This document shows, one piece after another, positions 450 through 63,862 of a DNA stretch of 64,000 nt. The notes beneath the pieces are model-generated. The model worked only from the letters and a program-made list of their open reading frames with translations, did not search any database and was not told the DNA's origin. A program made the position numbers and the translations under genes. The stretch covers positions 2,294,001-2,358,000 of the forward strand of contig NZ_CP060388.1 in the NCBI RefSeq assembly GCF_014280435.1. The letters run 5' to 3'. Position 1 is the stretch's first letter, and each line of letters begins with the position of its first letter. The DNA is from Sphingobium sp. KCTC 72723. GTDB lineage: Bacteria; Pseudomonadota; Alphaproteobacteria; Sphingomonadales; Sphingomonadaceae.

Positions 450-1417
450 GGGCGGGAGTCATCGGGGCAGGCGCATGGGGGACGGCGCTGGCGCAGTTGC
501 TGGCCGCCGACGGGCGCGCCGTGGCGCTGTGGGCGCTGGAGGCCGATGTGGTCGATGCGATCAATGGCGCGCGGGAAAATCCGCTCTATCTGCCCGGCCT
601 CAAGCTGGCCCCGTCGATCCGCGCGACCTGCGCGATGGCTGACCTTGGCGATTGCGAGATGCTGTTGGTGGTCAGCCCGGCGCAGCATCTGCGCAGCGTC
701 GTGGCACAAGCCCCTGCTGGCGTGCCGCTGATCCTATGTTCCAAGGGGATAGAGGCCGGCACTGGCCTGCTGATGGGCGAAGTGGCCCGGGAAGCGCAGC
801 CTATGTCGCCCATTGCCGTCCTGTCCGGCCCGACCTTCGCCCATGAAGTGGCCAAGGGATTGCCGACCGCCATCACGCTGGCGTGTGAGGATGCCGCGCT
901 GGGCGCGCAACTCGCGGCGCGGATCGCCCGGCCCGCTTTCCGTCCCTATCTGTCCGACGATGTGACTGGCGCGGAAATTGGTGGCGCGGTCAAGAATGTG
1001 CTGGCGATCGCGTGCGGGGTTGCCGACGGCGCGGGGCTGGGCCTGAACGCCCGTGCGGCGCTGATCAGCCGGGGCTTTGCCGAAATGACGCGCTTTGGCC
1101 TAGCGCGGGGCGCGCGGGCGGAAACGCTGGGCGGGCTGTCCGGGCTGGGCGATCTGGTGCTGACCTGTTCGTCCACCAACTCCCGCAACTTCTCATTGGG
1201 CAAGGGGCTGGGCGAGGGGCGCAGCGCCGCCGACCTGCTGTCCAACCGCCGCACCGTGGCCGAAGGCGCGTTTACCGCGCCCGTGCTGCGCGACGCTGCG
1301 CGCGCGGCGGGCGTGGAAATGCCCGTGGTCGAAGCGGTATGCGCGCTGCTGGCCGATGCCGCCCCGCTCGGTGCCGTAATCGACGCGCTGCTCGCGCGTC
1401 CGTTGCGGCCCGAATAA
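446..1417 (+). CDS. gpsA: NAD(P)-dependent glycerol-3-phosphate dehydrogenase
   Basis: GpsA reduces dihydroxyacetone phosphate to sn-glycerol 3-phosphate, the backbone precursor of phospholipids. The 323-residue protein is the usual family length. It opens with the Rossmann dinucleotide-binding motif GAGAWG (residues 7-12), and the catalytic lysine lies in GGAVKN (Lys183). The substrate-binding segment SGLGDLVLTCSS is present further on. The ATG at 446 overlaps the tsaD stop in ATGA; an in-frame extension upstream to 296 lies inside tsaD and is rejected. Co-transcription with tsaD is likely. Confidence 0.95.
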   Translation: MRAGVIGAGAWGTALAQLLAADGRAVALWALEADVVDAINGARENPLYLPGLKLAPSIRATCAMADLGDCEMLLVVSPAQHLRSVVAQAPAGVPLILCSKGIEAGTGLLMGEVAREAQPMSPIAVLSGPTFAHEVAKGLPTAITLACEDAALGAQLAARIARPAFRPYLSDDVTGAEIGGAVKNVLAIACGVADGAGLGLNARAALISRGFAEMTRFGLARGARAETLGGLSGLGDLVLTCSSTNSRNFSLGKGLGEGRSAADLLSNRRTVAEGAFTAPVLRDAARAAGVEMPVVEAVCALLADAAPLGAVIDALLARPLRPE

Positions 1418-1440: not shown

Positions 1441-2982
1441 ATGGCTACATTCCAGACAACAGACGGGACGACAGAGGGGAGTCGATTGGCCGCGCAGGTT
1501 CCTGCGTCGAAGGACGAGGACGACATCGCCGCCCTGGCCAAGGGCGGGCGGACCAATATATTCGGTTTCCTGCTGCGGCTGGCCGCGCGCCTGCCCTTCC
1601 TGTTCATCGCCGGGCGCTGGTATGGCGCAGATGTGCTGGGGCGTTTCGCCTATGCGGTACTGGTGGTCGAATTTGTCGCGCAGCTGGCGACGCTGGGCCT
1701 GAAACGTGGGCTGGCGGGCGCATTGAGCCAGACCGAGCGACCCCATGCCCATGTCGTGACCGACGCCATGCTGGTGACGATGGCGGCGGCGATGCTGGGC
1801 GCGGGGCTGCTGATCGTCTTTCCGCAGGCGATGTTCCCCAACAGCCCTATCAATGGGCTGGACCGGCTGCTGGCGCTGATCGTCATCGCGGTGGCGGGGT
1901 CGGACGTGGCACTGGCGGCGTGCGCCTATAAATTCGATGTCGGCGCGACGGTGCGGGCGCGATCCATTATCGAACCCTGGGCGATCAGCATCGGGGCGTT
2001 CGCTTTTTCCTTCTACTCGACGCGCGACGGGCTGATCCTGTCCTATGCCGTGTCGATGATCGCCGCCTTCGTCGCCTCGATCATTCCGATGGTGCGCCAT
2101 TATGGGCGACCGCGCGGCTGGCGACCCAATCGCGGGCGGTTGTGGCGGCTGGCGCGGCGCAACCTGCCGCTCGCCGCTGCCGATGGCGTGGAATGGGGAT
2201 CGCGGCGGCTGGACATGGCGATCCTGGGCCTGTTCGTCAGCCCGGCGGTGATCGGCATCTATTATGTCGCGCAACAGGTCGCGTCGCTGCCGCAAAAGCT
2301 CAAGACCAGTTTCGACCCCATCCTTGGCCCGGTCATCACCCGCAATCTGGCCGAAGGCAATCTGGCCGGGATCGCCCGGCAGGTCAGCCAGGTCGGTTTC
2401 TGGATCATCGCGGCGCAGGCAGGCATCGCGCTGGCGCTGGGCATACCGGGCGAAGCGGTGATGGGGCTGGTCGGGCCGCATTTCGTCGGCGGCACCGGGG
2501 CGCTTGCTTTCCTGCTAATGGCCGAAGTGGTGGCCGCGACCGCCGTGGTCAGCGAATCCGCGCTGGTCTATATCGCCCGCCACCGCAACCTGATGATCTC
2601 GCTGGGGATGATCGCGTGCCAGGCCGGTTTCAGCTTTGCGCTGATCCTGATCGCGCGCCGGTTCGCCATGCCGCCGATGTGGATCGCCGCCGCGCCTGCG
2701 CTGGCGCTATGCCTGGCCCTGGGGATCGGTGCCTTCGTCAAGGCCCGGCTGCTGGCGCGGTTGCTGGATGCGCCGATCAATGCGTGGCGCTGGCCATTGC
2801 TGAGCGCGGCCGGGGTCGGCTGCATCGTCGGCGCGGCCTTCGTGGCGTTGCCGCCCCGGCTGGAATGGGTCGAGCTGGTCGTTGGCGTATGGGCGATATT
2901 GGGCGCTTATGGCTGCGTCATCTGGCGCTGGGGCTTTGGTTCCGACGACCGCGCGCTGTTCCGCAAGCAGAAGGCGGAATGA
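1441..2982 (+). CDS. Oligosaccharide/polysaccharide flippase-like membrane protein
   Basis: A 513-residue polytopic membrane protein with about 12 hydrophobic segments, resembling the Wzx/MATE-type polysaccharide exporters of the MOP superfamily. Such proteins move lipid-linked glycans across the inner membrane. The first roughly 40 residues are polar and the membrane part begins at the segment TNIFGFLLRLAARLPFLF. The ATG at 1441 has no clear ribosome-binding site. A TTG at 1486 in the same frame follows AGAGGGGAG and may be the true start, giving a protein 15 residues shorter. The gene follows gpsA by 23 bases on the same strand. The substrate is not deducible. Confidence 0.75.
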   Translation: MATFQTTDGTTEGSRLAAQVPASKDEDDIAALAKGGRTNIFGFLLRLAARLPFLFIAGRWYGADVLGRFAYAVLVVEFVAQLATLGLKRGLAGALSQTERPHAHVVTDAMLVTMAAAMLGAGLLIVFPQAMFPNSPINGLDRLLALIVIAVAGSDVALAACAYKFDVGATVRARSIIEPWAISIGAFAFSFYSTRDGLILSYAVSMIAAFVASIIPMVRHYGRPRGWRPNRGRLWRLARRNLPLAAADGVEWGSRRLDMAILGLFVSPAVIGIYYVAQQVASLPQKLKTSFDPILGPVITRNLAEGNLAGIARQVSQVGFWIIAAQAGIALALGIPGEAVMGLVGPHFVGGTGALAFLLMAEVVAATAVVSESALVYIARHRNLMISLGMIACQAGFSFALILIARRFAMPPMWIAAAPALALCLALGIGAFVKARLLARLLDAPINAWRWPLLSAAGVGCIVGAAFVALPPRLEWVELVVGVWAILGAYGCVIWRWGFGSDDRALFRKQKAE

Positions 2983-2991
2983 GCGCTTCAT

Positions 2992-3107
2992 CCTCCCCCT
3001 GTGGGGGAGGTGGCAGCACGCAGTGCTGACGGAGGGGTGTCACCCTATCGAGAGCATGACACCCCTCCGTCTGGCCTGCGGCCAGCCACCTCCCCTGCAA
3101 GGGGAGG
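2992..3107. repeat. Composite palindromic intergenic repeat, copy 1
   Basis: Three hairpins fill the gap between two convergent genes: CCTCCCC/GGGGAGG around 2992-3010, a 12-bp stem GGAGGGGTGTCA (3031-3042) with TGACACCCCTCC (3057-3068), and CCTCCCC-TGCAA-GGGGAGG (3089-3107). The same three-part design occurs at 28186-28302, and the last hairpin alone occurs at 22640-22666. It may terminate transcription from both flanking genes. Confidence 0.85.
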
Positions 3108-3114
3108 ATCCAAG

Positions 3115-4116
3115 TCAGGCGAACAGCTTGTCGCGGATCACGCCCAGATCTTCCTCCGGGCGTGCGCCCCAGTGGGCAATGACTTCGGCGGCGGCTGCCG
3201 CGCCCAGCGCCAGGGCGTCCTCTACGCTGCGCCCGTCGATATGGGCGGCGAGGAATCCGGCAGCGAAAAGGTCGCCTGCGCCGGTGGTGTCGATGATTTT
3301 ATCGACCGGCACGCAGGGGGCTTCGTGGCGGATGCCATCGACAATGGCGACAGCGCCGCGTTCACCGCGCGTCGACACCAGCACCGGCACCTTGTCGGCG
3401 AAACGGGCCAGCGCCTTTTCGAAATCATCGATCTGGGCGAGCGACTGGATTTCGCCTTCGTTGGAAAAGAGAATGTCGATCTGGCCCTGCTCGATCAATT
3501 CGATGAAATCGGCGCGATGACGGTCGATCACGAAATTGTCGGACAGAGTGAAAGCCACCCGGCGACCTGCGCCACGCGCGGCTTCGATCGCGGCGCGCAT
3601 CGCGGCGCGCGGCTGCTGCGGATCCCACAGATAGCCTTCGAGATAGAGGATGCCCGCCGAACGGATGAGGTCGAGGTCGAGCGCTTCTTCCGGCAGGAAT
3701 TGCGACGCGCCGAGAAAAGTGTTCATCGTGCGCTGCGCGTCGGGGGTGACGAGGATGAGGCAGCGGGCGGTGGGAATGTCGCCGCTGATCGCCGGGGTGT
3801 CGAACCGGATGCCCAGCGCGCGCACGTCATGCGCGAACACGTCGCCAAGCTGGTCGGCATTGACTTGCCCTATGAAACCGCATTTTTTGCCCAGCGCGGC
3901 CAGCCCCGCCAGCGTGTTGGCGGCCGATCCGCCGCTGATTTCCTTCGCCTGCCCCATGTCGGCATAGAGGCTTTCCGCCATGGCCGCGTCGATGAGCTGC
4001 ATCCCCCCCTTGGTCAGGGCATGTTCGGCGAGGAAAGCGTCATCGCTGCGGGCGAGAACGTCGACGATGGCGTTGCCGATGGCGACGACATCGAGCGTAG
4101 GGGCAGAAGCGGTCAC
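3115..4116 (-). CDS. Adenosine kinase (PfkB family)
   Basis: A 333-residue PfkB-family carbohydrate/nucleoside kinase, most like bacterial adenosine kinases, which phosphorylate adenosine to AMP in purine salvage. The first family signature is seen as ISGGSAANTLAGLAALG (residues about 60-76). The second, DTTGAGDLFAAG, sits near the C-terminus and carries the catalytic Asp and the anion hole. Family length is normal. The gene converges on the flippase gene across the palindromic repeat and diverges from the EI24 gene. Ribokinase-type activity on another sugar cannot be fully excluded. Confidence 0.88.
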   Translation of the reverse strand: MTASAPTLDVVAIGNAIVDVLARSDDAFLAEHALTKGGMQLIDAAMAESLYADMGQAKEISGGSAANTLAGLAALGKKCGFIGQVNADQLGDVFAHDVRALGIRFDTPAISGDIPTARCLILVTPDAQRTMNTFLGASQFLPEEALDLDLIRSAGILYLEGYLWDPQQPRAAMRAAIEAARGAGRRVAFTLSDNFVIDRHRADFIELIEQGQIDILFSNEGEIQSLAQIDDFEKALARFADKVPVLVSTRGERGAVAIVDGIRHEAPCVPVDKIIDTTGAGDLFAAGFLAAHIDGRSVEDALALGAAAAAEVIAHWGARPEEDLGVIRDKLFA

Positions 4117-49991: not shown

Positions 49992-51971
49992 ATGAAGGCC
50001 GTTTTCGCGTCATTGTCCGCTATTGCGCTGGCTCTTGCCTCGCCCGCTGCCGCCCAACCTGCCGCCCCGACGCCTGCTCCGGCCCCGGCCCCAGCCCCAG
50101 CCCCAACCCCAGCATGGACGATCAAGGATTTCGCCGCCCTGCCGATGATGGAGCGCCCCGCTCTGTCACCCGATGGCCTGCACATCGCCAGCCGCGCGGC
50201 AGTCAATGGTGCGCAGATGCTGGTGATCGCCGATGTGCAGGAAGGGCCGAACCGCCTGCGCCTGCTGCCGATGGGCGAAAACGACCTCAACTGGTGGAAA
50301 TGGGTCAATGACGACTGGCTGATCGCGGGCATCGGCAACGAAACCAATGTGCAGGGGATGCCCTGGTATCTCAGCCGCGTCGTCAGCGTGAAACGCGACG
50401 GCAGCAAGATCAACATATTGGCCAAGAATGTCGCCGCGCAAAGCGCCGACGACGTCATCTGGGTCGCCCGCGACGGGTCGCCCCGCATCCTCCTGTCCTA
50501 CCAGACGTCGATCTATTATACCGATCCCGGTTTCTGGCCCAAGGTGGATGAAATCGACATCACCAACGGGCGGATGCACAGCGTCATCGCCCCGCGCCAG
50601 CATGTGCGCGGATGGTATGCCGATGCGGGCGGCACCGTCCGCATGGGGGTGGGCTATAATGACGCCACCCGCACCGCCAAACTGCTTTACCGCCCCGACG
50701 CCCGCGCCTCCTTCCGCACCGTCGATCGCGCCAATCGCCGCAACGACGAATCGCTGGTGGTGCCTTTGCTGTTCACTGCCGACCCGTCCAGGGCCATCGC
50801 CAGCGACGACCGCGATGGCACCGACGCGCTCTACGACCTCAATCTCGCCACGCTCGAACTGGGGCAGAAACTGTTTTCCGCGCCCGGTTTCGATCTGGGC
50901 GGGATAGAGGAGGACGCCAGCGGCACTGGCCTAACCGGGGTGCGCTACACGGCGGACGCCCCTGCGGTCCACTGGTTCGATCCCGGCCTCGCCAAGGTGC
51001 AGGCCGACATCGACAAGGCGGTGGGCGACCGGCGTGCGCGCATCATCTCCACCAGCCGCGACAATCAGCGCATGATCGTCCATGTCGGCACCCCGGACCA
51101 GCCGGGCGTCTATTATTATTACGATACCGCCGCAGGCGCGATGAGCGTGCTGTCGCGGGCCAGCGACCGTTTCGGTGGCAAGACCCGCCTGTCGCCTGTA
51201 AAAACCATCCGCTACAAGGCACGCGACGGGCTGGACATCGCCGCCGTGCTGACCGTGCCTGCAGGGCGAGAGGCCAAGGATCTGCCCTTCATCCTGATGC
51301 CCCATGGCGGCCCCTTCGCCCGCGACAGCGAAACCTGGGACTGGTGGGTCCAGTTTCTCGCCTGGCGCGGCTATGCCGTGCTGCAACCCAATTATCGCGG
51401 ATCGTCGGGCTATGGCACCGCCTTTGCCGAAAAGGGCGAGGGGCAATGGGGGCTGTCGATGCAGGACGACCTGAACGACGCCGTGGACTGGGCCGTCAAG
51501 CAGGGCATTGCCGACCCAAAGCGCGTCTGCATCGTCGGCGCATCCTATGGCGGCTATGCCGCGATGCGCGCGGCCCAGCGCGACGGCGGCAAATATCGCT
51601 GCGCCGTCTCCTATGCCGGGGTATCCGACCTGTCGGCAATGATGCGCTATGACAGCCGCTTCCTCAACCATGGCACCCGCCGCGACTGGATGAAGCAACA
51701 GGCGCCCGATTTCGCCGCCGTCTCCCCGGTCAATTTCGCCGCGCAATTTTCCACCCCCATCCTGCTGATGCACGGCAAGAAGGACCGCCGCGTGCAAGTG
51801 GCCCAGTCGCGCGAAATGGCCGAAAAGCTGAAAAGCGCAGGCAAGGCGGAAGGGCGCGACTATATCTATGTCGAACAGCCGCTCGCCGACCATTTCTTCT
51901 CACGCGAAGCTGATCGCGTGGAGTTTCTGGAGCGGCTGGACACCTTCCTCAAGGCGCATAATCCGGCATAA
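49992..51971 (+). CDS. S9 family prolyl oligopeptidase-like peptidase (exported)
   Basis: A 659-residue exported serine peptidase. The N-terminus is a signal peptide (KAVFASLSAIALALASPAAA) followed by an Ala/Pro repeat stretch. The middle is a beta-propeller-like part. The alpha/beta-hydrolase domain has the nucleophile in GASYGGYAAM (Ser518), the acidic residue in LMHGKKDRRVQ, and the catalytic His in LADHFF. It is an acylaminoacyl- or dipeptidyl-peptidase type; substrate not determined. The ATG follows GGGGGG by three bases. Confidence 0.9.
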   Translation: MKAVFASLSAIALALASPAAAQPAAPTPAPAPAPAPAPTPAWTIKDFAALPMMERPALSPDGLHIASRAAVNGAQMLVIADVQEGPNRLRLLPMGENDLNWWKWVNDDWLIAGIGNETNVQGMPWYLSRVVSVKRDGSKINILAKNVAAQSADDVIWVARDGSPRILLSYQTSIYYTDPGFWPKVDEIDITNGRMHSVIAPRQHVRGWYADAGGTVRMGVGYNDATRTAKLLYRPDARASFRTVDRANRRNDESLVVPLLFTADPSRAIASDDRDGTDALYDLNLATLELGQKLFSAPGFDLGGIEEDASGTGLTGVRYTADAPAVHWFDPGLAKVQADIDKAVGDRRARIISTSRDNQRMIVHVGTPDQPGVYYYYDTAAGAMSVLSRASDRFGGKTRLSPVKTIRYKARDGLDIAAVLTVPAGREAKDLPFILMPHGGPFARDSETWDWWVQFLAWRGYAVLQPNYRGSSGYGTAFAEKGEGQWGLSMQDDLNDAVDWAVKQGIADPKRVCIVGASYGGYAAMRAAQRDGGKYRCAVSYAGVSDLSAMMRYDSRFLNHGTRRDWMKQQAPDFAAVSPVNFAAQFSTPILLMHGKKDRRVQVAQSREMAEKLKSAGKAEGRDYIYVEQPLADHFFSREADRVEFLERLDTFLKAHNPA

Positions 51972-52077
51972 ATCAAACAAAGTTTCATCCAATTACAGTC
52001 CATTACCGCCAAGACCCTGCTTGGCTCCGACCGCATCAGCAGCCACCGTCCCCCCATAACAAAGGGGGAACGGAGCA

Positions 52078-52569
52078 ATGCGTCTTAGCTGGCCGGAAAT
52101 ACGGGCGAACGCGGCGCATTTCGCGACCGAATGGCGCGACAAGGGCTATGAAAAGGGCCAGACGCACAGTTTCTACGACGAATTTTTCCGCATCTTCGGC
52201 GTCCCGCGCAAACAGGTGGCGGTGTATGAACAGCGGGTAAGGGCGCTCGATCCGGGGCGGTCGAACGGCTTTATCGACCTGTTCTGGCCCGGCACGCTGA
52301 TCGTCGAACAGAAAAGCATGGGCCGCGACCTGACCCGCGCCATGACCCAGGCGCTCGATTATTATGACTGGCTGCCCGAAAGCCAGCGCCCCCGCCACAT
52401 GATGGTGTGCGATTTCCAGCGCTTCGAACTGCTCGATCTGGAAACCCGGCGCGAATGGCGCTTCCCGCTGACCGACCTCAAACGCCATGTCGAAGCATTC
52501 GGCTTCATTCTGGGCGTCCAGCCGCGCCTGTTCCGTAACCAGTCGCCGGTCAACCGCAAGGCGTCCTAA
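52078..52569 (+). CDS. N-terminal nuclease part of a Type IIL-like restriction-modification protein (cut by a stop codon)
   Basis: A 163-residue protein corresponding to the N-terminal part of MmeI-like single-chain restriction-modification enzymes. The PD-(D/E)xK nuclease core is visible as FIDLFWPG (Asp67), then VEQK (Glu77-Gln-Lys79). In homologues as recalled this region continues directly into the methylase part. Here a TAA at 52567-52569 ends it, and the next reading frame, in the same phase, begins three bases later. The expected join (KAAE-LMGRLH) is replaced by KAS-stop-LMGRLH, consistent with a Glu codon changed to TAA. The stop may abolish the linked nuclease activity. Confidence 0.75.
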   Translation: MRLSWPEIRANAAHFATEWRDKGYEKGQTHSFYDEFFRIFGVPRKQVAVYEQRVRALDPGRSNGFIDLFWPGTLIVEQKSMGRDLTRAMTQALDYYDWLPESQRPRHMMVCDFQRFELLDLETRREWRFPLTDLKRHVEAFGFILGVQPRLFRNQSPVNRKAS

Positions 52570-52572
52570 CTG

Positions 52573-54837
52573 ATGGGCCGCCTGCACAATGCACTCGCGG
52601 CCGATGGTTATACGGGCCATGATCTGGAACGGTTGCTGGTGCGCCTGCTGTTCATCCTGTTCGCCGACGACACTGGCATTTTCGAGCGCAAGGACCAGTT
52701 TCTCACTTTCCTCGAACAGCGCACCAGCGCCGACGGGCGTGACCTTGGCCGCTGGCTGGGCGAATTGTTCCAGACGCTCGATACCCCGCCCGACCGGCGG
52801 CAACAGGGGCTGGACCCAGATCTGGCCGAATTTCCCTATATCAACGGCGAATTGTTCCGCGAACGCATCGCCATGCCGTCCTTCGACCATGCCATGCGCA
52901 CCATGTTGCTGGACGCCAGCATGTTCCACTGGGGCGACGTGTCCCCGGCCATTTTCGGCTCCCTGTTCGAAAGCGTGATCGACAGCGTCACCCGGCGGCG
53001 GCAGGGCGCGCATTACACGCCCGAACAGGCGATCCTCAAAGTCATCGAACCCCTGTTTCTGGACGATCTGCGCGCCGAATTTGCCCGCGCCAAAGGGCTG
53101 CGGTCGGGCCGGGCCCGCGCCGTGCGCGCGCTGCATGACCGGCTGGGGACGCTTGCCTTCCTCGACCCGGCCTGCGGGGCGGGCAATTTCCTCGTCGTCG
53201 CCTATCGCGAATTGCGCGAACTGGAACGGGAGATTTTGAAGGAACTGCTCACCGCCGACGGCAGGGTCGAACTGGTAATGGATGTCGCCGCCCTCTCCAA
53301 ACTCGATGTCGACCGCTTCTTCGGCATCGAAGTGGACGAATTTCCCGCTATGATCGCGCAGGTCGCCTTGTGGATGACCGACCATATCGCCAATACCCGG
53401 CTGGCCGAGGATTTCGGCCAGCATTATGCCCGCATCCCGCTGGTCAAAGCCCCCGGCATCCGCCACGCCGACGCGCTGGAGATCGACTGGAACGATGTCG
53501 TTCCGGCGGAGCGATGCACCCATATATTGGGCAATCCGCCCTTCGTCGGCGCGAAATTCCAAACCCCGCAACAGCGCGCACAGGTGCGACGGCTGGCCGA
53601 CCTGCCCGGCAGCGGCGGCACGCTCGATTATGTCGCGGCATGGTTCATCAAGGCGGCGCGCTATGGCGCGGGCGGCGACACCCGCATCGCCTTCGTCTCC
53701 ACCAATTCCATCATCCAGGGCGAACAGGTGGCCCAGCTATGGCCGATCCTGTTTCGCGCAGGCGCGGAAATCGCCTTCGCCCATCGCCCCTTCGTCTGGC
53801 CGGGCCGTGCGGCGGTGCATTGCGTCATCATCGGACTGTGCGCGCGCGGCGCGGAAGGGCCACAAAAACGCCTGTTCAGCTATGCCGACGCGAAGGGCGA
53901 ACCGACCGAAACCCGCCATGGCGCGCTGACCGCCTATCTGTTCGACGCGGGCCAGGCCGACCGCCATCTGGTGGTGAAAGAAGAAAGCCGCCCGATCAAC
54001 GGCGCACGGCGGCTGCTCACCGGATCGAAGCCACTTGATGGCGGCTTTCTTGTCCTCGACGCGCAGGATCGCGCAATGCTTCTGGAAGCCGAGCCGGAGG
54101 CAGACGCACTTCTCCGCCCCTATCAGGGGGCGCATGAATTCATCAATGGCTATGTCCGTTGGGTGATTACGGCGTTCAACGCCTCTCCAGACCGATTGCG
54201 CAAATTGCCCATGATACGGCAGCGCCTTGCCAATGTGCGTGACTGGCGACGGGCCAGCAACAGCCGCACGACCAGCGCTCTCGCCGACACACCCGCGCAA
54301 TGGCACGTCACTGTCATGCCGGATGCGCCCTATCTGGTCATTCCCAACACGTCCTCGGAAAGGCGCGACTATATCCCCATTGGCTGGGTGAACGCACCAA
54401 TCATCCCCAATCAGAAATTGCGGGTTTTACTGGACGCCACGCTCTGGGAATTTGGCCTGCTGACCAGCCGGATGCACATGGCTTGGATGCGCCAGATCAG
54501 CGGCCGGATGAAGAGCGACTACATGTATTCCGTCGGCGTCGTCTACAACACATTCCCCTGGCCCGAAGCCGCCGACCCGCAGCGCGCCACCATCGAATCG
54601 CTGGCGCAGGCCGTGCTGGACGCCCGCGCCCTGCCGCAGAACGCCACCTCGTCGCTCGCCGATCTTTATGATCCCGACACCATGCCCGCGCCCCTGCGCC
54701 GCGCCCATCGCGATCTCGATCATGCGGTGGAACGACTCTATCGCAAAGCCCCCTTCGCGTCCGACCGCGAACGGGTGGAACATTTGTTCACCCTCTACCA
54801 GCACATGATCGCCCCGCTGAATGGCAAGCAACGGTAA
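52573..54837 (+). CDS. N6-adenine DNA methyltransferase with helical and target-recognition regions
   Basis: A 754-residue methylase body of an MmeI-like (YeeA-like) protein. A helical connector (LERLLVRLLFILFADDTGIF) precedes the SAM-binding motif LDPACGAGNFLV (DPACGAGN at residues 198-205), and the catalytic motif NPPF is at residues 321-324. The C-terminal third is a likely target-recognition region and has less biased base composition. There is no strong ribosome-binding site at ATG 52573; translation could come by reinitiation after the stop at 52569. Alone it may act as an orphan methyltransferase. It lies between the S9 peptidase and bioF, with AT-rich DNA after it. Confidence 0.85.
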   Translation: MGRLHNALAADGYTGHDLERLLVRLLFILFADDTGIFERKDQFLTFLEQRTSADGRDLGRWLGELFQTLDTPPDRRQQGLDPDLAEFPYINGELFRERIAMPSFDHAMRTMLLDASMFHWGDVSPAIFGSLFESVIDSVTRRRQGAHYTPEQAILKVIEPLFLDDLRAEFARAKGLRSGRARAVRALHDRLGTLAFLDPACGAGNFLVVAYRELRELEREILKELLTADGRVELVMDVAALSKLDVDRFFGIEVDEFPAMIAQVALWMTDHIANTRLAEDFGQHYARIPLVKAPGIRHADALEIDWNDVVPAERCTHILGNPPFVGAKFQTPQQRAQVRRLADLPGSGGTLDYVAAWFIKAARYGAGGDTRIAFVSTNSIIQGEQVAQLWPILFRAGAEIAFAHRPFVWPGRAAVHCVIIGLCARGAEGPQKRLFSYADAKGEPTETRHGALTAYLFDAGQADRHLVVKEESRPINGARRLLTGSKPLDGGFLVLDAQDRAMLLEAEPEADALLRPYQGAHEFINGYVRWVITAFNASPDRLRKLPMIRQRLANVRDWRRASNSRTTSALADTPAQWHVTVMPDAPYLVIPNTSSERRDYIPIGWVNAPIIPNQKLRVLLDATLWEFGLLTSRMHMAWMRQISGRMKSDYMYSVGVVYNTFPWPEAADPQRATIESLAQAVLDARALPQNATSSLADLYDPDTMPAPLRRAHRDLDHAVERLYRKAPFASDRERVEHLFTLYQHMIAPLNGKQR

Positions 54838-54863
54838 CGCCTTGCGCTTCCCTGAACAAAATA

Positions 54864-54885
54864 GTTTAAATTCAGTATATTAAAC
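54864..54885. promoter_or_regulatory. AT-rich inverted repeat before bioF
   Basis: GTTTAA (54864-54869) and TTAAAC (54880-54885), spaced by 10 bases, lie in an AT-rich gap of about 200 bases before the biotin genes. It could be a biotin-operator or a mark of the upstream integration. No known consensus was matched. Confidence 0.35.
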
Positions 54886-55045
54886 CAATCACGCACCGCT
54901 TTCGCCGCTCCCTCTGACCACACCTATGAACGCGGCAAACCTTTGCTTATAACCTGCTATGGTCGTTATGGGCGAACTTAGTCATGTTCCGCTTTTACCC
55001 CCTCCCATCTTGCCCCCCATCCCGCCCGCGCCTATAGCCCCGCCC

Positions 55046-56170
55046 ATGACTGCTGAACCCTTGGCCAGGCAGCTTGCCGCGCTGGAAGCGCGCGGGCGGC
55101 TGCGGCATCTGATCCCCCGCGCCGGGCGCGATTTCGCCTCCAACGACTATCTCGGCCTCGCTGGCGATCCCATGATCGCGCAGGCCGTGTCCGACGCAAT
55201 TGCGCGCGGCGTGCCAGTGGGGTCGGGCGGATCGCGCCTGCTGCGCGGCAATGCCCCCGAACATGAAGGGCTGGAGGCAAAGGCCGCCGCCTTCTTCCGC
55301 ACCCAGGCCGCTTTGTTCGTCGCCAACGGCTTCGTCGGCAATCTGGCGCTGTTCGCCACCCTGCCCCAGCGCGGCGACCTGATCGTCGCGGACGAACTGA
55401 TCCACGCCAGCGCCCATGACGGCTTCCGCATGAGCAAGGCGACGACCGTGTTCGCCCGCCATAACGACGTGCAGAGCTTTGCCGACCTGATCGCCGGTTT
55501 CCGCAAGGAAGGGGGCAAGGGCCGCATCTGGATCGCGGTCGAAACGCTTTACTCAATGGACGGCGACCTTGCCCCGCTGGCCGATCTCGCCAAGCTGGCC
55601 GCCACCCATGGCGCGATGCTGGTGCTGGACGAAGCGCATGGCACCGGCGTGTTCGGTCCGGGCGGACGCGGGCTTTCGGCGGGTCTGGACGGACTGCACA
55701 ATGTCATCACGCTGCACACCTGCGGCAAGGCGATGGGGACCGAAGGCGCGCTGATCTGCGCCCCGCGCCTCGTCATCGACTATCTCATCAACCGCGCCCG
55801 CGCCTTCATCTTCTCGACCGCACCGTCGCCGCTGATGGCCGTCGCCGCCTCCGCCGCGCTCGACCGGATAGAGGATGCCAGCGACCTGCGCGACCGGCTC
55901 AAGACGCTGCGGCAGGACGCGGCCGAAGCGATCTGCGCCCCGCTCGGCCTGCCCACCCCCCGCAGTCAGATCGTCCCGGTCCTGTTGGGAGAGGACAAGC
56001 GCGCCATGGCCGTCGCTGCCGCCTTGCAGGAGGCCGGGTTCGACGTGCGCGGCATCCGCCCGCCCACCGTCCCGCCCGGCACCAGCCGCCTGCGCATCTC
56101 GCTCACGCTCAACGTCGGGCGCGTCGATGTCGCCGCGCTGGGCCGGGAATTGCAGCGGATCGTCAAATGA
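55046..56170 (+). CDS. bioF: 8-amino-7-oxononanoate synthase
   Basis: BioF condenses pimeloyl-CoA or -ACP with alanine, the first ring-forming step toward biotin. The 374-residue PLP enzyme shows DFASNDYLGLAGDP, GSGGSRLLRGN, VLDEAHGTGVFG with the PLP-ring Asp, and HTCGKAMGTEGA with the Schiff-base lysine. The start at 55046 was chosen because the upstream extension is proline-rich and lacks similarity. The stop overlaps bioD as ATGA. Confidence 0.94.
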   Translation: MTAEPLARQLAALEARGRLRHLIPRAGRDFASNDYLGLAGDPMIAQAVSDAIARGVPVGSGGSRLLRGNAPEHEGLEAKAAAFFRTQAALFVANGFVGNLALFATLPQRGDLIVADELIHASAHDGFRMSKATTVFARHNDVQSFADLIAGFRKEGGKGRIWIAVETLYSMDGDLAPLADLAKLAATHGAMLVLDEAHGTGVFGPGGRGLSAGLDGLHNVITLHTCGKAMGTEGALICAPRLVIDYLINRARAFIFSTAPSPLMAVAASAALDRIEDASDLRDRLKTLRQDAAEAICAPLGLPTPRSQIVPVLLGEDKRAMAVAAALQEAGFDVRGIRPPTVPPGTSRLRISLTLNVGRVDVAALGRELQRIVK

Positions 56171-62386: not shown

Positions 62387-62462
62387 GCCTGGATAGCTCA
62401 GTTGGTAGAGCAAGCGATTGAAAATCGCTGTGTCGGCGGTTCGAATCCGTCTCCGGGCACCA
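62387..62462 (+). tRNA. tRNA-Phe (GAA)
   Basis: A 76-base cloverleaf with encoded CCA end. The acceptor stem is GCCTGGA paired with TCCGGGC (one G-U), then A73 and CCA at 62460-62462. The D arm is GCTC..GAGC, the anticodon stem is AGCGA/TCGCT around the loop TTGAAAA, giving anticodon GAA, and the T arm holds GGTTCGAATC. The 3' end borders the integrase region and is a likely attachment site. Confidence 0.97.
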
Positions 62463-62560: not shown

Positions 62561-62636
62561 ACAGCCGGAGATTTTGGGGGCCAGATTGGGGCCCATTTCA
62601 TGCGTGGCCCCAGGCGACATGGAAATGGCCCCCACG

Positions 62637-63862
62637 ATGGCGTTGACCGACACGGCGATCAAAAATGCCAAGCCCAAGGATAAGCCCTATAAAATGGGTG
62701 ACGCCGGTGGGCTTTTTTTGTTGGTCCAGCCAAGCGGTGGAAAGCTCTGGCGGCTCAAATACCGTGTCGATGGCAAGGAGAAGAAGCTGGGTCTGGGCAC
62801 CTATCCCGAAGTCAGTCTGGGTGATGCGCGCAAGGGCCGCGACAAGGCCCGTGAGTTGATAGCCATGGGCAAAGACCCCGGTGTCGAGAAGGTGCGGAAG
62901 AAGGTTCAGGATCGCATCTCCGCCGACAACACCTTTGCCACGGTCGCCGCCGAGTTCATCAACAAGCGGACCAAGGAGGGCTGGGCGGAAAACACGCTGG
63001 CGAAGGCGGAATATCTGCTGGGCAACCTGAGCCCCGCGATCGGACGGATGCCAGTGGCCGAGATCCTGCCAGCCGATCTGATCCCTGTTCTCAAGCGGGT
63101 CGAGGGCAAGGGCAATCTGGAGACGGCCCGGCGGATGCTCCAGTTCGCCAGCCAGGTCTTTCGTTATGCGGTCGCCACGACTCGGCTGACATCTGACCCC
63201 ACCCGCGATCTCAAGGGCGCGCTGATCGCACCGAAGCCGAAGCATCATGGCGCGATCATCGACCCGGTGAAGGTGGGTGAACTGCTGCGCGCGATCGATG
63301 GCTACGATGGCAACTATGTCACCCTCTATGCCTTGAAGCTCTCCCCGCATGTTTTCGTGCGCCCCGGTGAATTGCGTTCGGCCATGTGGAAGGAAATCGA
63401 CATTGAGGGCGCTGTTTGGACGATCCCGGCCGAAAAGATGAAGATGCGCAAACCGCATCATGTCCCCCTCTCCCGCCAGGCGCTCTCCCTATTGAACGAG
63501 TTGCGCGAATTGACTGGCGGCAGGCTCGGTCTGGTGTTCCCGTCGATCCGTTCCACCGCCCGCCCCATGTCGGAAAACACCGTCAACGCGGCGCTCCGGC
63601 GGTTGGGCTTCACGGGCGACGAGATGACCGCTCACGGTTTCCGCGCCATGGCTTCAACACTGCTCAATGAGAGCGGGAAATGGCATTCAGACGCCATTGA
63701 GCGGGCATTGGCGCATCAGGACAGCGATAATGTCCTGCCGCATACCATCGCGGCGCACACTGGAAAGAGCGCGTCGAGATGGCGCAATGGTGGTCGGATC
63801 ATCTCGACCAGTTGCGCGCCGGTGCGGCGATCCTGAATTTCCCGACGGAGGGGCGTGGTTGA
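62637..63862 (+). pseudogene. P4-type tyrosine recombinase integrase with a one-base frameshift
   Basis: An integrase of the P4/DUF4102 type beside tRNA-Phe. The N-terminal arm-binding part (LTDTAIKNAKPKDKPYKMGD) and a core-binding part are intact. The catalytic Arg is in RPGELR (Arg242) and HGFR is at 333-336. At codon 367 the frame is lost: GTC-CTG-CCG reads on to a shifted stop at 63836. Inserting one base after 63735 restores VRAAYHRGAHWKERVEMAQW, a family-typical end with the catalytic Tyr, stopping at 63862. The Tyr is absent from the frame as read. It is a pseudogene, or a sequence error. ATG 62637 matches family starts. Confidence 0.85.

Follow-up and report, generated by a model that had tools for sequence, protein, structure and literature searches.

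The window analyzed here, a stretch of 64,000 nucleotides from Sphingobium sp. KCTC 72723, carries at 52078-54837 a single MmeI-family (Type IIL) restriction-modification (R-M) frame whose sole interruption, judged from the open reading frames and their translation, is a TAA codon at 52567-52569. The lesion is real, ordinary and recent, one nonsense codon in a gene whose family is known. We favor the reading in which this recent nonsense codon uncouples the nuclease while the body may persist as a stand-alone methylase by translational restart, and give it a probability of roughly 0.53. The nonsense codon would detach the nuclease from the DNA-recognising and methylating body of a single-chain Type IIL gene in a Sphingobium-like host. 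From family architecture, a nuclease piece of 163 residues that lacks a recognition domain would be unable to locate DNA sites, and loss of site-linked cutting is on this ground very likely. Less certainly, ribosomes ending at the TAA may resume translation from the ATG that follows after 3 nt and produce a certain amount of the 754-residue body, which would then work by itself as an N6-adenine methylase of one strand; the odds that methylation survives are about even. If the body is made, the locus would represent a naturally caught early step in which an R-M gene becomes an orphan DNA methylase, and near-identical single-chain relatives are there to compare it with. If it is not made, the locus would be another decayed restriction gene, a state seen in 8/60 strong MmeI-type rows from genomes of the same taxonomic order.

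Layout of the interrupted frame

The upstream part, ORF1 (52078..52569, + strand, 163 aa), encodes the detached N-terminal PD-(D/E)XK nuclease domain of MmeI type (MmeI_N, 129.8 bits in Pfam; D67, E77, K79) and is preceded by a strong Shine-Dalgarno-like stretch at 52058..52077 (+; anti-SD duplex of -10.0 kcal/mol). Its stop codon (52567..52569, +) lies at the boundary of nuclease and helical spacer and was not seen in any relative at the same column. After a CTG codon, and thus 3 nt beyond the TAA, ORF2 begins in the same frame with ATG 52573 and runs to a TAA ending at 54837 (52573..54837, +, 754 aa). By Pfam and by alignment with MmeI, ORF2 comprises the spacer, N6-adenine methylase, target recognition domain (TRD) and C-terminal helices. 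The Pfam domains follow the order hel-Mtase-TRD-C, as in Type IIL enzymes with their gamma-class N6-adenine methylase, all on the + strand: MmeI_hel (PF20465, residues 16-95, 52618..52857, 86.9 bits), MmeI_Mtase with the motifs DPACGAGN and GNPPF (PF20473, residues 180-435, 53110..53877, 259.4 bits), MmeI_TRD (PF20466, residues 464-665, 53962..54567, 216.4 bits) and MmeI_C (PF20467, residues 668-747, 54574..54813, 91.4 bits). These coordinates bear out an earlier reading made from the sequence only, which had placed nuclease and methylase parts in one frame with just TAA-CTG before ATG 52573. No further stops or frameshifts were found in the R-M frame beyond TAA 52567-52569, and the profile match in the organism's own genome also shows one TAA within the MmeI_N region.

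Residues 1-165 of MmeI (PDB 5hr4) align with ORF1 (E 1.3e-43) and residues 169-905 with ORF2 (E 1e-198). This is the sole PDB chain matched by ORF2 at E 0.001, and the match across both ORFs is, as an alignment, far beyond chance. The PADLOC Type IIG model PDLC03598 likewise spans both ORFs (positions 2-163 and 166-910 of 912). Structure prediction for ORF2 from 32 sequences gave a mean pLDDT of 64.7 and a pTM of 0.41, too poor for fold searching; because of this weak model, the sequence match to 5hr4 was used instead. MmeI (Type IIL; PDB 5hr4; PMC4833311) shares all five domains and their order with the window locus; MmeI is one chain, whereas at the window locus the nuclease is parted from the rest by a stop. 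Residues 1-155 of MmeI, its endonuclease domain, are disordered in the crystal, where the model bound to DNA and cofactor analogue comprises residues 156-906 (PMC4833311, in part), close to the extent of ORF2. Since the stop falls at this MmeI domain boundary, ORF2 corresponds to the region that DNA-bound MmeI shows as ordered. In the alignment with 5hr4 the TRD of ORF2 has Lys and Asp at the sites equivalent to MmeI 806 and 808, a pair reported in the accessible text of PMC4833311 to specify G at position 6 exclusively, and recognition of G at position 6 is predicted for ORF2 from it. The site predicted on this basis has about six bases and ends in A-G, its A being methylated on one strand. 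With less certainty, a Lys equivalent to MmeI 774 may favor C ahead of this A; in ORF2 it is paired with Met, whereas the reported pair has Ser.

The motifs on either side of the stop are demonstrably intact as far as alignment can tell. Among the 119 database relatives listed, D67 is found in 113 and E77 and K79 in 115 each, the remainder being gaps, while DPACG[A/C]GN and GNPPF occur in all 119. The nuclease residues (Asp67, Glu77-x-Lys79) and methylase motifs named in the earlier reading are therefore present here and conserved among these relatives. In Type IIL enzymes, one-strand methylation protects and cleavage occurs about 20 bases downstream. The PD-(D/E)XK endonuclease of this family is present, though on a separate ORF, and cutting and methylation do not reside on a single polypeptide owing to TAA 52567-52569. 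Since the TAA splits the two activities, we file the gene as a broken member of Type IIL and not as a working one. Viewed as an orphan methylase, it has a body without a linked nuclease: ORF2 lacks an MmeI_N match, and ORF1 with its intact motif lies directly upstream.

The junction in relatives and the age of the stop

Relatives of ORF2 are encoded at 77 loci of named genomes, and 66 of these cover both the junction and the nuclease part; the comparison leaves out ten in which the ORF2 match lacks its beginning (at a contig end or because the match is partial) and one (L111) without a matched nuclease part. None of the 66 junction-spanning loci is interrupted there, either by a stop or by a broken frame, and at the stop column they have E in 52, D in 3, L in 3, Q, R and A in 2 each, and N and G in 1 each. 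In the protein database, 7999 proteins scored above the cut, scoring being confined to the candidates with most words in common, and the list comprised 120 of them, including ORF2 itself. Of the 119 relatives listed, 113 had enough of the nuclease part for comparison of the junction, the others having a partial nuclease part (P0171, P0172) or none (P0173, P0187, P0207, P0214). The stop column of these 113 listed proteins holds E in 56, Q in 25, R in 18, D in 10, A in 2 and K in 2. The sequence-only reading had proposed that a Glu codon was changed to a stop. Glu is indeed the commonest aligned residue (52/66 and 56/113 listed), but Gln, Arg, Asp and others occur, and close relatives read KASELMGRLHNAL at the junction and not KAAELMGRLHDAL as had been suggested.

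The Met that follows is an ATG in 52/66 loci and a Met in 109/113 proteins listed, and by this comparison the junction Met is old. Three nuclease-less database relatives, P0187, P0207 and P0214, have predicted starts at this Met. One of the 66 loci, that of Hymenobacter roseosalivarius (L089, about 3512-4000), has an in-frame stop that lies earlier, inside the nuclease part and not at the junction.

With G000 and G101 excluded, a class-level survey of 385 genomes added 28 strong rows of at least 74 bits. Frames of 700-860 aa were found in 0/28 of these, and 4/28 were shorter; two weaker rows had frames of 790 aa (66.2 bits) and 749 aa (60.2 bits). A conserved two-protein split is rejected on the 0/66 junction splits together with the 0/28 class-level rows of 700-860 aa. 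Conserved separate genes for nuclease and MTase/TRD, each with its own start signals, were likewise not found (0/66, and a Shine-Dalgarno score for ORF2 near that of the median ATG). The search with ORF1 as query is limited to short proteins by a rule on length. It gave 787 matches, and the 120 of them that were listed range from 152 to 285 aa, with 3 to 15 per 10-residue bin and no sharp favored length, so that the listed short matches resemble contig ends or lesions and not a standard small nuclease protein. Single-chain ancestry, in one frame and of the MmeI-like kind that had been presumed, is shown at the level of sequence by the 66 loci of named genomes, by the database proteins and by the PDB chain 5hr4, which aligns over both ORFs.

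Among the matches listed, two intact single-chain proteins of 919 aa share 99% (P0122) and 98% (P0123) identity with ORF2. Stop aside, each differs from the window at 1 position in the nuclease part, and they differ at 11 and 12 positions in the rest; P0124 and P0125 differ at 1 and 2 positions in the nuclease part and at 69 and 72 in the rest. Because such close single-chain relatives exist, the stop arose after divergence from them, which demonstrates its recency as judged by residue identity. Recent decay, one of three options that had been put forward along with a two-protein split and read-through, is therefore favored, and these comparisons make recent nonsense decay the best supported of the three. 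The kind of change is ordinary gene decay.

Seven residues set the window apart from both P0122 and P0123 (1 in the nuclease part, 6 in the rest). Five of the seven recur in at least one of P0124-P0127, and only 346 and 349 look private among these; at the column of V349, 118/119 relatives listed have Leu. At columns conserved to 97% or more the window breaks 1, and 38 relatives (P0122-P0159) break a mean of 1.00 and a maximum of 5. As read from these alignments, the pattern fits a young lesion and is compatible both with selection and with too short a time for decay. Several of the differences in P0122 and P0123 are clustered and the nuclease part is near-identical, which suggests exchange of segments.

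Translation of ORF2 and decay of MmeI-type genes

Shine-Dalgarno scores were set against those of 2352 ATGs taken from the two strands of the window. The ORF1 score (-10.0 kcal/mol) is reached by 0.98% of these, and that of ORF2 (-3.0 kcal/mol, with AAGG 11 nt from the ATG) is equalled or bettered by 48.6%, which puts it near the median. Nine presumed gene starts of the window were scored in the same way, and those at 54959, 56856 and 60584 have a weaker match than the ORF2 start, so a poor Shine-Dalgarno score does not exclude translation. The predicted fold at the ORF2 start (-26.0 kcal/mol) is the most stable of 23 in-frame ATGs; as the ORF1 start is nearly as stable (-25.5 kcal/mol), the fold does not discriminate. 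Given an ATG 3 nt past the stop and an average Shine-Dalgarno score, any methylase would most likely be made by termination-reinitiation. Where stop and ATG are only 3 nt apart, reinitiation can dispense with a separate ribosome-binding site. Note that this closeness was not used as proof: 188 codons of the frame are one step from a stop and 7 of them (3.7%) have an ATG within two codons, which makes it mildly unusual for a single case. Note also that the junction Met, being conserved in relatives, was not made for the purpose of restart.

The strongest competing explanation, to which we allow somewhat less than an even chance, is a plain pseudogene, in which translation ends at the nonsense codon, ORF2 is not usefully made and both activities are gone. 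The weak Shine-Dalgarno score of ORF2 would agree with this, as would the frequency of damage in related genes. In 396 genomes of the taxonomic order, 60 MmeI_hel rows scored 75 bits or more; rows below 75 bits, mostly of the longer Type IIG kind, were not counted. Frames shorter than 860 aa occurred in ten of the 60 strong rows. Two, G439 and G071, sit at contig ends, and excluding them leaves internal disruption in 8/60, the window included. At least five of the other seven are broken inside the ORF2-encoded part, namely by a frame change within it in G294, G324, G444, G165 and G273. As most breaks hit this part, plain decay is the usual course. G355 was judged disrupted from its short frame alone, matching the reference poorly, and G393 (65 bits) is an additional broken case. 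Against the pseudogene stand the reinitiation geometry of stop and ATG, the intact methylase motifs and the intact recognition domain. Among the disrupted rows of the taxonomic order, only the window and G140 have the body whole without a linked nuclease.

Of 20 stretches retrieved from the survey, 12 were compared with the reference and L193 and L194 were read, L195-L200 being left out. Both L193 (4132-4836, -) and L194 (1063-1755, +) are of the longer Type IIG kind and have a TAG inside the nuclease part. The G140 stretch (L185, G140:C1:1872900-1877900) encodes at 1507-3783 (+) a 758-aa MmeI-type methylase body that has no nuclease domain; its start is adjoined, close to the same domain junction, by an ORF at 966-1352 (-), presumably transposase-like. 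A nuclease-domain remnant of 193 aa in L190 (G334:C24:69600-74600; 1007-1588, +) ends shortly past the junction residues ELMG, and no match to a methylase body was obtained in that stretch. The junction was considered as a hot spot for lesions, since the window, L185 and L190 cluster there. The searches favor breakpoints that spare one domain, and owing to this bias no lesion rate is claimed for the junction.

A broader version of the restart reading, which we regard as doubtful, takes the junction Met as a built-in restart, such that boundary lesions would repeatedly yield, in one step, stand-alone one-strand methylases from Type IIL genes. The window would then be a very young case, and P0187, P0207, P0214 and L185 would be others.

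Known systems, remaining explanations and genomic surroundings

Both split MmeI systems and orphan methylases of MmeI-like type have been published; an account of the exact case in the window was not found in a partial literature collection, searched mostly by title. Bacillus subtilis DnmA/YeeA is described in the available text of PMC9973331 as an MmeI homologue without an REase motif that methylates GACGAG and gives no phage protection. Like ORF2, it is an MmeI-like body without linked cutting, methylation by ORF2 being predicted. DnmA is reported there without an REase motif and beside yeeB/yeeC, whereas in the window the motif is intact but detached. In AchA6III and OspHL35III (PMC4752239, in part), MTase/TRD and endonuclease reside on different peptides, as in the window; these are reported as separately encoded systems, whereas the window split results from one recent, non-conserved stop inside a single frame. 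The H. pylori Type IIG genes JHP1272 and HP1353-HP1354, as far as the consulted portion of PMC3936762 goes, are single-chain R-M genes also interrupted in frame, but their frameshifts sit in homopolymer repeats able to shift, and no such repeat was seen at 52567. Taken with the crystal order of MmeI, DnmA and the split MmeI systems make it plausible, by analogy, that the ORF2 body is functional on its own.

The same split systems lend some precedent to a tolerated two-protein R-M system, in which the nuclease half would join the methylase half again and restriction would persist: MmeI-family MTase/TRD proteins with a separate endonuclease are reported (AchA6III, OspHL35III; PMC4752239, in part), and the nuclease residues are intact in ORF1. 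We consider this improbable, as no relative examined has the same split (0/66; 0/28), relatives consistently encoding two proteins were looked for in both sets and not found, and the lesion is too young to show a selected split. That the gene is intact in the organism, and the stop an error of sequencing or assembly or else a variant of the culture, would agree with the near-identical intact relatives in the protein database. This is very improbable: the genome, in whose assembly the lesion is demonstrably present, comprises 4,429,423 bases in 2 contigs with completeness 100, and single-base substitution errors are rare in such assemblies. Read-through of the TAA to give some full-length enzyme, which would fit a frame running on without other lesions, is the least probable of all and gains no support, since TAA is usually the tightest bacterial stop and no stop-reading anticodon was found among the 48 tRNA matches of the own genome, all typed by ARAGORN in a list that is probably incomplete (tRNA-Ile(gat) is missing).

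The R-M gene lies within 49992-56170, flanked on one side by what we take to be an S9-type peptidase gene and on the other by one that looks bioF-like. Within flanks of at most 4 kb, 3 of the 77 named loci have the peptidase and 6 others the bioF-like gene. At the strict cut the peptidase occurs in 28/61 same-genus genomes, and the R-M gene is absent from many genomes of the genus. It lies near the peptidase in 4 (at 109 bases in the own genome and at 1.2 to 1.4 kb in G005, G025 and G026), which makes its presence at the site variable. No near match to the R-M gene was found among plasmid records, and viral contigs gave 3 distant relatives (44-45%). Further along the window, a tRNA-Phe (gaa) at 62387-62462 is closely followed by a 420-aa ORF at 62574-63836, presumably integrase-like. 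Together the two would form the usual edge of an integrated island, one that would extend past 64000.
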